A stretch of 64,000 nt of DNA from Anaerocaecibacter muris (GTDB lineage: Bacteria; Bacillota; Clostridia; Christensenellales; Pumilibacteraceae). Made by a program: the position numbers and the translations under genes. This document shows positions 56,543 to 60,012 of the stretch, piece after piece. The notes under the pieces are model-generated. The model was not told the origin of the DNA. It made no database searches and saw nothing but the letters and a program-made list of their open reading frames with translations. Position 1 is the first letter of the stretch; each line of letters begins with the position of its first letter. The stretch covers positions 186,001 through 250,000 of the forward strand of contig NZ_CALPCE010000003.1 of the NCBI RefSeq assembly GCF_943192945.1. Reading direction: 5' to 3'.

Positions 56543-56917
56543 ATGCCCGATTCGACAATACCGAAATTCCTACTCAACCGAGCCAAAACCATACTGAAAG
56601 ATATGCGCGTGCCCGAACACTTGCAAGGCTTTACGTTCCTCGCGGAAGCGGCGGCACTGAAAAGCCTGTTCACCTGCCGCCGATACATGCAAATATATAC
56701 GCACATCGCAAAGGCGCACGACATCTCGAGTAAAACCGTAACCAACTCGATGTCATATGCCCTGGATTGCAACCGCGAAAACATTTGCGCCAATCTCAAA
56801 ATAAACCTCAACGAGCTATGTTGCAGTCGCGTCATATCCATGGCAGCCCTTCGCCTCGCCCATGCCGACGAACTCCCCACCCCGTCGCCCATCAACCTCG
56901 CCAAACCCTATAAATAA
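56543..56917 (+). CDS. Stand-alone Spo0A C-terminal-like DNA-binding protein
   Basis: 124 residues from the ATG at 56543, which has AAAGGAG 9 nt upstream. Residues 20-90 resemble the helical DNA-binding domain of Spo0A: MRVPEHLQGFTFLAEAAAL aligns with the GVPAHIKGYxYLREAI pattern, and IYTHIAKAHDISSKTVTNSMSYALDCNRENI aligns with the [28 protein letters not shown] pattern. There is no receiver domain, so it cannot be phosphorylated like Spo0A. It may be a short transcription factor or an antagonist of Spo0A-type sites. No sporulation gene adjoins. The similarity is judged by eye and is moderate. Confidence 0.65.
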   Translation: MPDSTIPKFLLNRAKTILKDMRVPEHLQGFTFLAEAAALKSLFTCRRYMQIYTHIAKAHDISSKTVTNSMSYALDCNRENICANLKINLNELCCSRVISMAALRLAHADELPTPSPINLAKPYK

Positions 56918-57019: not shown

Positions 57020-57048
57020 CTTACAATAACTAAGGATTATTTGGAGAA
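57020..57048 (+). repeat. Left arm of a perfect 29-bp inverted repeat around the two-gene cassette
   Basis: Runs CTTACAATAACTAAGG then ATTATTTGGAGAA, and ends on the A of the ATG at 57048. The reverse complement is exact at 58737-58765. It contains a TACAAT (57022-57027) that lies 17 nt after TTGCCC (56999-57004), so it may carry the -10, and AAGGA, which is a possible ribosome-binding site 11 nt before the ATG. Confidence 0.85.
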
Positions 57049-57899
57049 TGGACAATATAGTTGCATCATTATTAATAGCAGCAGGTCAAACTTTTATAGG
57101 CGCTTTGGGAACTATAGGCGCCTGCGTATATAATAAGTTCTACAAAGAGAATTCTTTCGACTGCCCATTGGATTTATGGCATAGAGGTATTAACTCACAA
57201 AAACTTGGAGAAAACGATACGGTAAGATTAGATTGTTTAATATCCCCGTATGTACAGTTATTCCCACGAGATCCATTTGAAAATGCAAAAAGATGGAATA
57301 CTCTTTATGATTTTGAAGGAAAAATCAACTCTCAGCAATACAGTAAACTAGAGTTTTATGCTGGCTCAGACGATACTGTAAGAACAGGTTCTTTGAACGG
57401 CGAAACATTGGTTGGTTTATATGCTAGGTACGGTTATATCGGCGAGGGTATTTTAGGGGTTATACCAACAAAATATTTATTGAATAAAATACCGAATTTC
57501 TTTAAAGAAGACTTCTTTGGTTGTCGAGTTAGATTAAAGGGTACATTATCTCATTGCCCCACCCAACATAGTTATATAGCGAAAGGAATGTTTTTATCTG
57601 CCGGTATAAATTTAGAAACCGATAATTACAGAAATATACCGTATTTGAAGATATCTAATATCGAGCTTTTTAACGATAAACATGCTGCTTGTTCATTATT
57701 AGGCTCACCTTGGGCAGCTACAAATCTTTCCAAAGAACCTTTTATAGTCCAATATGGGTATATTAACAATCGTGAAGAACTCGATACTTGCAATAAAAAA
57801 ATACTCAATTCTCCGCAATGGGATAATGTAGAAGTCTTTTACGACACTTTAAGATGCCCTACGAAAGAATTGAGCTTTTCATCTAATTTCATTAAATAA
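57048..57899 (+). CDS. Membrane-anchored protein of unknown function (cassette gene 1)
   Basis: 283 residues, not recognised. One N-terminal membrane segment (about 4-27, VASLLIAAGQTFIGALGTIGACVY) without a lipobox, then a roughly 250-residue soluble part with few strongly charged runs. The region VRLKGTLSHCPTQHSYIAKGMF...YLKISNIELFN could be a small beta-barrel (OB-like), which is a guess. Cys residues are at CVYNKF, FDCPLD, LDCLI, FGCR, SHCP and CSLL. The start is fixed by the 29-bp leader, though GGAG is too close to the ATG and AAGGA is the better ribosome-binding site. Strongly AT-rich. It converges with and overlaps gene 2 by 21 bp at the 3' ends. Membrane anchor plus enzyme pairs of this style occur in defence cassettes; inference only. 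Confidence 0.8.
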   Translation: MDNIVASLLIAAGQTFIGALGTIGACVYNKFYKENSFDCPLDLWHRGINSQKLGENDTVRLDCLISPYVQLFPRDPFENAKRWNTLYDFEGKINSQQYSKLEFYAGSDDTVRTGSLNGETLVGLYARYGYIGEGILGVIPTKYLLNKIPNFFKEDFFGCRVRLKGTLSHCPTQHSYIAKGMFLSAGINLETDNYRNIPYLKISNIELFNDKHAACSLLGSPWAATNLSKEPFIVQYGYINNREELDTCNKKILNSPQWDNVEVFYDTLRCPTKELSFSSNFIK

Positions 57900-58733
57900 A
57901 TTTTTAATAAATGTAGGTATATAGAAATAATATGATAGGTGTTTAGGCGAATACATATTGTATCGGATTATGTTTTTATTCGTTAGAAAATTATTTTGAA
58001 TCTCGTTAATAGGTTTTTCGATAATATTTTTCAATACACCTTTCTCGCTCCATATTGTTTGCAAATGAAATATCCCAGGATATTCGGGTATTGTTATAAG
58101 TGATAGTTTATATGAAATATCCTCATCATTTAATAATTTTAAAGAGTCATGGGTCGTATTGATTTCAAAAATATGTTTATAAATAACATCGGTACATACA
58201 CCTCTTTCGGAAGCAAAATTTAATAAAAGTTTATAGTAGGACTTATTATGTGATTGGCTTTCTAAGCTAAGATTAAAACAATCATTAACAATCAAGTCGT
58301 ACTTTCCGGTATGCTCTAATAAAAATGAATGGGCATCTTGTTCTATGTAATGGAATTTAGGATTGCTAATAACATCTTTAACATGCGAATAATACCTTTC
58401 CATTAAATCCAATACTGTATGATCATAATCACATAACACAATTTTTTCTATAGTTGGGTATTTTAGTATTTCGTAAGCCGCAAATAAAGAACCCCCGCCG
58501 ATAATTAATGCAGTCTTTACTTGCGGAATAAAAGCGATTGGTAAATGTACTAGTTGTTCGTGATAAAACTGTTGATAAAATTCTATATGTTGAATTTCAC
58601 CATTTATAACTAATATTTTTCCTAAGTTTTTATGTAGATATAGTATGATTTGTTGTTTATCGGATTGAAATGATTCTAATATTTCCATATCTTGTAAGTA
58701 CAAGCTTACGGATTCATTTTCAAAAAAATACAT
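57879..58733 (-). CDS. Spermidine-synthase-fold protein (cassette gene 2)
   Basis: 284 residues. The middle matches the aminopropyltransferase/Rossmann methyltransferase fold: YHEQLVHLPIAFIPQVKTALIIGGGSLFAAYEILKYPTIEKIVLCDYDHTVLDLMERYY corresponds to the SpeE pattern HE-x-hhhP...hhhIGGGDG...V-x-hVEID. The motif after it is YDLIVNDCFNLS where spermidine synthases have D-S-x-D-P, so the first catalytic Asp (Asp in NDC) is kept, but the second is replaced by Asn; GGGDG is GGGSL. The substrate is therefore probably not the standard putrescine/dcSAM pair. About 70 extra C-terminal residues are unlike SpeE. No speD, speA or speH is nearby. Ribosome-binding site GGAG 5 nt before the ATG, inside the shared 29-bp leader; promoter TTGCAC-17-TAAAAT at 58768-58796. 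Confidence 0.8.
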   Translation of the reverse strand: MYFFENESVSLYLQDMEILESFQSDKQQIILYLHKNLGKILVINGEIQHIEFYQQFYHEQLVHLPIAFIPQVKTALIIGGGSLFAAYEILKYPTIEKIVLCDYDHTVLDLMERYYSHVKDVISNPKFHYIEQDAHSFLLEHTGKYDLIVNDCFNLSLESQSHNKSYYKLLLNFASERGVCTDVIYKHIFEINTTHDSLKLLNDEDISYKLSLITIPEYPGIFHLQTIWSEKGVLKNIIEKPINEIQNNFLTNKNIIRYNMYSPKHLSYYFYIPTFIKNLFNEIR

Positions 58734-58736
58734 AGT

Positions 58737-58765
58737 TTCTCCAAATAATCCTTAGTTATTGTAAG
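58737..58765 (-). repeat. Right arm of the 29-bp inverted repeat
   Basis: Exact reverse complement of 57020-57048, here forming the leader and ribosome-binding site of the spermidine-synthase-fold gene. Confidence 0.85.
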
Positions 58766-58767
58766 AT

Positions 58768-58796
58768 ATTTTACCATAAAAATCAGGTGTGTGCAA
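58768..58796 (-). promoter_or_regulatory. Promoter of cassette gene 2
   Basis: On the minus strand, TTGCAC (58791-58796), 17 nt, TAAAAT (58768-58773). Predicted +1 falls just inside the 29-bp arm. Confidence 0.6.
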
Positions 58797-58823: not shown

Positions 58824-59048
58824 TTAAAAAATATTTGTACTTTTTTGTATATTTTTGATTTTAATAGACTCGCGAACAAAAACCCCAAAAAAGAAACAAA
58901 ACAAATATTGGATTGATATATTTTCATTAGATACCGACAGTTCGCTGCTTGTTTCGTCGTCATTATTTAAATCGATGCAACCGACGAACGCAAACGAAAC
59001 ACATACCGCCATTAAAACAGCGCAAAGCATAGTCACAATTTTTTTCAT
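58824..59048 (-). pseudogene. Truncated lipoprotein (signal peptide plus short tail)
   Basis: 74 residues. It begins as a normal lipoprotein: MKKIVTMLCAVLMAVCVSFAFVGC with lipobox FVGC (Cys24), then an acidic linker IDLNNDDETSSELS. The following residues (ISIQYLFCFFFGVFVRESIKIKNIQK) look like non-coding read-through, so the gene appears cut off soon after its export signal. A good AGGAG ribosome-binding site lies upstream. It is divergent from the XRE gene at 59196 and shares operator-like palindromes with it, so it was probably a regulated surface protein before truncation; a functional micro-lipoprotein cannot be excluded. Confidence 0.55.
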
Positions 59049-59064
59049 AACGTTTAACTCCTAA

Positions 59065-59084
59065 ATGGGTGATTTATAACCCAT
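59065..59084. promoter_or_regulatory. Operator-like palindrome 1
   Basis: ATGGGTGATTTATAACCCAT, just upstream of the truncated lipoprotein's ribosome-binding site. Same TGGGTGAT...AACCCAT pattern as 59118-59137. Confidence 0.55.
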
Positions 59085-59117
59085 ATTGTACGCCATATTT
59101 ATTTAGAAGTCAAGCGA

Positions 59118-59137
59118 TTGGGTGATATTTAACCCAT
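59118..59137. promoter_or_regulatory. Operator-like palindrome 2
   Basis: TTGGGTGATATTTAACCCAT, centred between the two divergent genes; differs from palindrome 1 mainly in the central bases. Confidence 0.55.
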
Positions 59138-59167
59138 AAATAAATTATCAATAATAATAAACTTAAA

Positions 59168-59195: not shown

Positions 59196-59438
59196 ATGAA
59201 TATCAGCCAAGCGGTAGCAATAAGGATTAAAGAACTATTACTTGAAAACAATTTAACTCAATATCGGTTAGAGCAAAAGGCTTGCCTATCGCACGATACT
59301 GTTAAAAGCATTATGAAAGGCAAAGCAAAAGGCGTTAATTTAAAAACATTGGTTGCAATTGCGGACGGATTCGGAATAACCGTCAGCGAATTTTTAAATT
59401 CAGATTTATTTTTATATGATAACTTAAATATGGACTGA
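59196..59438 (+). CDS. Small XRE-family regulator
   Basis: 80 residues from the ATG at 59196, with AGGGGG 8 nt upstream; the longer in-frame ORF from 59169 begins inside palindrome 3 and is not preferred. Helix-turn-helix domain: IRIKELLLENNLTQYRLEQKACLSHDTVKSIMKGKAKGVNLKTLVAIADGFGITVSEFLNS, with recognition helix around SHDTVKSIMKG. Three related palindromes upstream suggest that it represses itself and the divergent truncated lipoprotein gene. The coding sequence is AT-rich like the neighbouring cassette. Confidence 0.88.
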   Translation: MNISQAVAIRIKELLLENNLTQYRLEQKACLSHDTVKSIMKGKAKGVNLKTLVAIADGFGITVSEFLNSDLFLYDNLNMD

Positions 59439-59499
59439 AACAAATTTCAATGTTTTAATAATCGAATTTTAATATATATTATAGAAATAAAAGCGCGCA

Positions 59500-59690
59500 C
59501 TACTCATACAGTGCCGCTACCACGAAAAAAACACCCTTTCGGGAGTACAACCGGATTGTGCCGCAAAATGCGGCACGGGCTTCGGCTTTGCCGAGCGCCT
59601 AACGAACTGCGCGCCGAATTTGTTTTTACGTATTATGGTGTTGTGGTTTTTTATATATTTTCGCCATCATATATAGTTTTTTGCGGCGCG
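59500..59690 (+). repeat. 190-bp tandem repeat, unit 1
   Basis: Starts CTACTCATACAGTGCCGCTA, then a copy of the tRNA-Met 3' tail and terminator stem (GCCGCTACCACGAAAAA, ACACCC), then hairpins GTGCCGC/GCGGCAC and GGGCTTCGGC-type, and an AT-rich end. Slightly diverged from unit 2. Confidence 0.85.
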
Positions 59691-59880
59691 CTACTCATAC
59701 AGTGCCGCTACCACGAAAAAAACACCCTTTCGGGTGTACAACTGGATTGTGCCGCAAAATGCGGCACGGGCTTCGGCTTTGCCGAGCGCCTAACGAACTG
59801 CGCGCCGAATCTGTTTCCACGTATTATATGTTGTAGTTTTTTATATATTTTCGCTATCATATATAGTTTTTTGCGGCGCG
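59691..59880 (+). repeat. 190-bp tandem repeat, unit 2
   Basis: Same order as unit 1, period 190-191 bp. No coding potential is likely, although the frame stays open by chance across the units. Confidence 0.85.
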
Positions 59881-59935
59881 CTACTCATACAGTGCCGCTA
59901 CCACGAAAAAAACACCCTTTCGGGTGTCTTTTTCG
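59881..59935 (+). repeat. 190-bp tandem repeat, partial unit 3 merging with the tRNA-Met terminator
   Basis: The first 47 bases match units 1 and 2, after which the sequence becomes the tRNA's own terminator. GCCGCTACCACGAAAAA (59894-59910) is the exact inverse of 59929-59945, and ACACCC (59912-59917) pairs with GGGTGT (59922-59927), giving a long cruciform. Confidence 0.8.
59912..59927 (-). terminator. tRNA-Met terminator
   Basis: On the minus strand, ACACCC-gaaa-GGGTGT followed by TTTTTTT, starting 8 nt after the CCA end. Confidence 0.85.
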
Positions 59936-60012
59936 TGGTAGCGGCAACTGGATTCGAACCAGTGACCAATCGGGTATGAACCGAGTACTCTAGCCAGCTG
60001 AGCTATGCCGCC
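59936..60012 (-). tRNA. tRNA-Met (CAT anticodon), elongator type
   Basis: 77 nt including encoded CCA. Acceptor GGCGGCA pairs with TGCCGCT (first pair G-U). D-arm GCTC...GAGT, anticodon loop TTCATAC on stem TCGG/CCGA, T-arm CTGGTTCGAATCCAG. The first base pair is not the C-A mismatch of initiators, and the body resembles elongator tRNA-Met; tRNA-Ile2 (lysidine type) is the alternative for a CAT anticodon. Promoter at 60025-60053. Confidence 0.93.

Follow-up and report, generated by a model that had tools for sequence, protein, structure and literature searches.

DNA inversion is an established source of phase variation in surface structures and in hsdS genes. RecV and PsrA belong to the tyrosine recombinases, and gene-altering inversions are said to have been surveyed systematically by Milman et al. 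in 2023. The closest mechanistic precedent for the locus described here comes from Ureaplasma, where the oppositely oriented genes of mba/UU376 and UU172/UU171 alternate by inversion at short inverted repeats, which puts either gene behind one expression site (PMC3047005). In phages Mu and P1, the orientation of the G and C segments, respectively, likewise picks which gene set is expressed, but the recombinases (Gin and Cin) are serine enzymes and the genes are those for phage tail fibres (PMC12529663). Inversion between short inverted repeats also underlies phase variation of cwpV in Clostridioides difficile (PMC2784873) and of pneumococcal hsdS (PMC4948785), although what flips in those cases is a regulatory leader or portions of a specificity gene. 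For the PinQ/e14 P-segment, the recombinase is encoded elsewhere on the chromosome, as we propose here, and inversion influences phage infection; unlike our proposal, this involves a serine recombinase, a chimeric tail-fibre gene and a block of adsorption (PMC12529663).

The window considered here is the whole 64,000-nt stretch of Anaerocaecibacter muris DNA that was analysed. Judging from the sequence and that of its relatives, segment 57020–58765 is probably (at a probability of roughly 0.78) an invertible two-gene switch, in which site-specific inversion puts either of two genes, A or B, behind one fixed promoter. An order-restricted, Xer-like tyrosine recombinase would cross over within the 7-nt spacer of both inverted sites and thereby flip the 1.7-kb segment, so that A or B lands behind a single fixed outer promoter, while the gene at the far end is left without one. 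In the assembled orientation, the spermidine-synthase-like gene B would be ON and gene A OFF. The Ureaplasma elements carry surface antigens, whereas the cargo of the window family is enzyme- or effector-like; moreover, the mba inversion fuses a common 5′ coding part, while in the window the sites are in the leaders and two whole genes would be exchanged (PMC3047005). In the open-licence literature searched, we came across no case of a dedicated tyrosine recombinase switching whole, alternative gene pairs of the defence type. The class of mechanism has precedents; neither the family nor its sites, cargo or proposed role turned up in that literature, and the window cassette apparently belongs to an undescribed family, a novelty that is provisional.

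The cassette and its inverted sites

The cassette is bounded by 57020–57048 on the A side (plus strand) and 58737–58765 on the B side (minus strand), which are reverse complements of each other and identical at all 29 positions, against a chance expectation of ~3e-10 (3 kb of the same composition). An earlier, sequence-only reading had described perfect 29-bp repeats around an AT-rich block with two convergent genes, and all of this holds: the cassette has a G+C content of 31%, compared to ~50% in its surroundings, and the gene coordinates of A (57048–57899, plus strand) and B (57879–58733, minus strand) give a 21-nt overlap of the 3′ ends (57879–57899). That both repeats are 5′ leaders needs some correction, since the inner end of the left repeat, which holds the ribosome binding site (GGAG), ends on the A of the gene A ATG, and this repeat is thus not entirely 5′ UTR. 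A general leader element placed before many unrelated genes of the genome had been foreseen as the finding that would speak against a special role for the repeats; there are no further copies in the 1.97-Mb genome, even allowing up to three mismatches.

Within the repeats lie the putative inversion sites, at 57023–57041 (plus strand; ACAATAA-CTAAGGA-TTATT, with arms AATAA/TTATT around a 7-nt spacer) and at 58744–58762 (minus strand), with the same spacer, CTAAGGA. Invertible elements of tyrosine recombinases are flanked by two identical inverted sites with inverted arms around an overlap of 6–8 nt that is the same in both, and this is the arrangement found around the window segment (AATAA-CTAAGGA-TTATT).

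Gene A encodes 283 aa with an N-terminal hydrophobic helix and no known family, consistent with its earlier description as a membrane protein without assigned function. Searches of Pfam, NCBIfam, PADLOC, PHROGs and PDB returned no significant match; the top PDB profile hit was ThsB (E=0.26), which was set aside, and an AlphaFold model from three sequences reached a pLDDT of 38.6. Among 20 genomes of the genus, two encode full-length A, as does one further genome (L006); it was not found elsewhere among 391 genomes of the class. Its orthologues are those in L006 (73% identity) and G015 (60%); no relatives were found in viral contigs, and a weak match in G032 was dismissed because it runs across another gene.

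The product of gene B (284 aa) does have the spermidine-synthase fold that had been predicted for it, matching PF01564 with E=4.9e-27 and having relatives in PDB. It shares this fold and family with SpeE, but falls far under the SpeE equivalog cut-offs (110 bits against 250 for TIGR00417; 130 against 260 for NF002010). Furthermore, in the alignment, the dcSAM-binding Asp of the GGGD SAM motif, intact in spermidine synthases proper, is replaced by Ser82 (GGGS) in all three B orthologues.

Paired sites and a recombinase in related genomes

Co-occurrence of A and B in other genomes had been proposed as a check on the cassette, and orthologous pairs are indeed found in two, L006 and G015. In the former, a Clostridia MAG, A and B (B with 51% identity) converge and overlap by 18 nt; in the latter, a member of the window's genus, they are at the ends of two contigs. 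In each of these genomes, both genes have the same leader, which differs from genome to genome: TACAATAACTAAGGATTATT in the window, TACAATAACTCTTTATTATT in L006 and TACAATAACTTAGGATTATT in G015. Such identity within genomes, combined with divergence between them, is characteristic of paired sites that have to match.

This pattern is not confined to A and B. A search of the order with ACAATAACTNNNNATTATT in 396 genomes, and with a looser form in 26, yielded further inverted pairs, most with a spacer of their own, and at least 8 further loci have the window-type layout with different cargo. Every complete relative cassette has a convergent 3′ overlap, of 6–23 nt. The sites have the core layout of tyrosine recombinases (AATAA-7 nt-TTATT), and each locus carries inverted sites of the form AATAA-CTNNNNA-TTATT, with a spacer that is matched within the locus and different between most loci. 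Both sites of every same-contig pair (window, L006, G260, G264, G014 and G006) have the same four free spacer bases. In the G264 pair, and in the cross-contig pairs of G228 and G141-2, the two sites differ in their outer arms yet share their spacer. Because the cross-contig pairs (G015-2, G141-2, G179 and G228) were matched up by spacer identity itself, only the same-contig pairs are independent tests of the spacer rule, and a figure of 1/34459425 for spacer agreement was set aside for that reason. As a control, exact site matches in viral contigs were all single and unpaired among the 80 matches listed. Single sites in G214, G367, G392, G131 and G413, inside or between ordinary genes, were dismissed as chance.

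In about 10 loci, one site is adjoined by a divergently oriented gene for a Xer-like tyrosine recombinase of ~295 aa with all catalytic residues present (R, K, HxxR, H, Y). This is the case in G015 (twice), G179, G208, G264, G347, G228 (twice), G201 and G014; in G014, recombinase, site, gene, convergent gene and site are all on one contig, and in G006 an identifiable start of the recombinase gene is found at a contig end beside the site. A further clade (f20, with G093, G141-C49 and others) lacks sites next to its genes and is left out of the site-linked set. Of 297 genomes of the order, 23 encode the recombinase; the same threshold gave no match in 398 further genomes of the phylum. The window genome has one intact member (G000:C3:116915-117796), which has all catalytic residues and groups with the G015 members. 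Since this enzyme, the nearest family member, is encoded 126 kb from the window cassette with no site beside it, we can only infer that it acts in trans on the window sites. The recombinase of the L006 genome is likewise encoded elsewhere and not at the cassette.

Promoters, assembly breaks and alternative explanations

If orientation determines expression, a promoter should be expected on one side only. The putative outer promoter of the window is at 58768–58796 on the minus strand (TTGCAC-17-TAAAAT, with an extended TG), its −10 ending 5 nt before the site, and is predicted to read into B. It matches a family promoter, TTGNNA-17-TANAAT with an extended TG. Outside the window's genus, most recombinase-linked loci have this promoter on the recombinase side, ending 4–6 nt short of the site, and it is absent from the partner side wherever that side is readable. 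Promoter scores on the two sides are 10 vs 6 in the window (B side higher; shuffle P=0.002), 11 vs 6 in L006 (A side higher), 11 vs 6 in G179 and 10 vs 7 in G228; the asymmetry is less clear in G015 and G014, two other members of the window's genus. The predicted promoter thus points towards B in the window and towards A in L006, which would put these orthologous cassettes in opposite phases. The sequence-only reading had suggested that inversion changes which gene a promoter drives, and this agrees with our best model; it had placed an outer promoter on each side, of which the right one is present, as just described, while the left one (TTGCCC-17-TACAAT) has its −10 inside the repeat, and there is no promoter at the family position on the A side.

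Assembly breaks provide a further line of evidence. Of 27 recombinase genes, 9 start less than 200 bp from a contig end on the cassette side, where 0.17 would be expected (P=4e-14). In G264, contig C12, which bears the recombinase, stops at the final base of the repeat and has an overlap of exactly 55 nt with C27, the contig of the cassette; C27 begins, at its other end, 55 nt before the inner edge of the repeat. Such an overlap is produced by a de Bruijn graph with a word length of 55 that has two continuations after the repeat, corresponding to both orientations. In G260, contig C28 spans precisely from repeat to repeat, and in G228 a 406-kb and a 357-kb contig both end at partner sites. Contig ends at the sites of these relatives are as expected if both orientations coexist. 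Multi-copy recombinase genes (there are three in G015) could be a partial cause of the breaks, but most breaks are at the sites and not within the recombinase gene, a position that multiple gene copies cannot account for.

Could the window cassette be a former switch, its sites and genes intact in this strain, on which the recombinase no longer acts? No recombinase adjoins it, and its contig is unbroken, with no direct sign of the other orientation, so that inversion in the window strain is likewise something that we infer. However, the two sites match perfectly along all 29 nt, both reading frames are open, the G000 recombinase is intact, and L006, too, has its recombinase elsewhere in the genome, all of which makes such a frozen state doubtful, if worth bearing in mind. 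It is unlikely that A and B form a toxin–antitoxin or two-component defence pair that must be co-expressed, with the repeats being incidental: their pairing and overlap are conserved in three genomes, but one fixed promoter cannot co-express convergent, overlapping genes with inverted promoter-proximal sites, and other cassettes hold two paralogous effectors (SIR2/SIR2 in G179, TIR/TIR in G260). The earlier idea of an enzyme and a membrane effector working together is not supported, as the layout implies alternatives, expressed one at a time from one promoter.

The sequence-only reading had left three roles open for the repeats, namely a shared regulatory leader, the ends of a mobile cassette, or inversion sites, and it is the last of these that comparison with relatives strongly supports. 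Co-regulation of A and B from two promoters, through an operator, riboswitch or translation leader, would be in keeping with the position of both copies in 5′ leaders, ribosome binding site included, and with the polyamine-type enzyme encoded by B. It is nevertheless very unlikely, considering that no Rfam family matches the repeat/leader region, that the element, 20–42 nt long in the family, has a spacer that varies between genomes but is identical within each locus, that unrelated genes follow it in relatives (SIR2, TIR, pentapeptide, ATPase), and that the family-type promoter is one-sided in loci where it is clear. Equally unlikely are terminal inverted repeats of a transposon, or of a unit moved by a transposase in trans. 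The AT-rich block in a GC-richer chromosome, its scattered presence in the genus (2 of 20 genomes) and flanks that are not syntenic in sister genomes would all suit a mobile cassette. Against this, transposons and insertion sequences combine terminal inverted repeats with target-site duplications and a transposase, while there is no target-site duplication in the sequence flanking the window or L006 repeats and no transposase among the genes of the window segment. In addition, the spacer rule and the arm mismatches outside the spacer are unlike terminal repeats, the repeat includes the ribosome binding site and start-codon context, only two copies exist in the genome, loci differ in their cargo, and the enzyme associated with the sites is a tyrosine recombinase.

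Cargo, a possible antiphage role and neighbouring genes

What might a two-gene inversion switch be for? The same switch would serve other alternative gene pairs in the family, several of them Thoeris-type antiphage genes. The domains of Thoeris (ThsA SIR2/STALD, ThsB TIR) are found in the cargo of G260, where a TIR and a PNP-STALD gene face a gene for a TIR-SLOG protein, and of G179, where two different ThsA-like SIR2 genes face each other; in G228, a PNP-STALD gene is just outside one site. Other cargo consists of PRTase-like and SHMT-like genes facing a membrane protein with a TPR-type repeat match (G264), a pentapeptide-repeat protein facing an ATP-grasp (G014), and an AAA-type ATPase facing ADH-like and GNAT-SHMT genes (G006). 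PADLOC gave no matches in the complete G014 and G006 cassettes. Genes neighbouring family sites include AbiL, type I restriction-modification, bSEFIR and HipA.

That some relatives carry Thoeris-type genes speaks for an antiphage role in part of the family and, by association, makes one plausible for A and B. The window genes themselves have no Thoeris domain in the sense of a ThsB TIR with a ThsA SIR2/STALD effector, A having no Pfam or PADLOC match and B only Spermine_synth, and neither is recognised by the PADLOC defence models. The earlier suggestion of an antiphage candidate is therefore plausible from the cargo and the defence neighbours of relatives, but finds no backing in the defence models for A or B. 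Given the Thoeris-type genes among the cargo, the switch would likely let a single population hedge its bets between two alternative functions that are probably antiphage. On a broader view, to which we give about an even chance, recombinase-driven dual-gene cassettes across the order would let clonal populations alternate two complete antiphage modules, Thoeris-type as well as undescribed ones such as A/SpeE-like, behind one promoter. The result would be a phase-variable immune repertoire, with locus-specific spacers preventing cross-recombination between cassettes of one genome. If so, innate antiphage immunity can diversify stochastically within a clone, paired AATAA-CTNNNNA-TTATT sites, often beside a recombinase, are a simple signature for finding undescribed defence genes, and inversion accounts for assembly breaks in many genomes of the order. 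The differing spacers constitute a testable natural set of specificity variants.

Several other features were seen around the cassettes. SHMT-like PLP enzymes recur in the otherwise different cassettes of G006 (L312 3541–5241) and G264 (L271 756–1982), on the opposite strand to the ATPase or the membrane protein, respectively, and an enzyme-versus-effector split may be a family rule that includes A and B. Genes for a sigma-70-like factor, a secreted protein and a single-pass membrane protein recur near the sites of G015, G010, G014 and G006 (L060, L082, L311 and L312), possibly marking a preferred location or a partner. Beside the second G015 site (L037 1–12000), a type I restriction-modification operon is interleaved with bSEFIR and FRG-like genes.

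Around the window cassette, the XRE gene noted earlier is present on one side, while the left neighbour's resemblance to Spo0A-C (E=0.0018) falls short of the Pfam cut-off. Small Spo0A-C-like proteins are encoded near cassettes both here (56543–56917, sub-threshold) and in G015 (L060 3751–4086, similar by eye). Between the cassette and the XRE gene (59196–59438) is a small lipoprotein-like ORF at 58824–59048 on the minus strand (MKKIVTMLCAVLMAVCVSFAFVGC). Two almost identical 20-bp elements, TGGGTGATwTwTAACCCATA, lie shortly before the XRE gene at 59066–59085 and 59119–59138 and are probable operators of this regulator. Farther along, 59448–59946 contains ~190-bp direct repeats in three partial copies, each with a terminator-like GCCGCTACCACGAAAAAAACACCCTTTCGGG, beside tRNA-Met (59936–60012, minus strand), which looks like repeated duplication or integration at the 3′ region of the tRNA gene.
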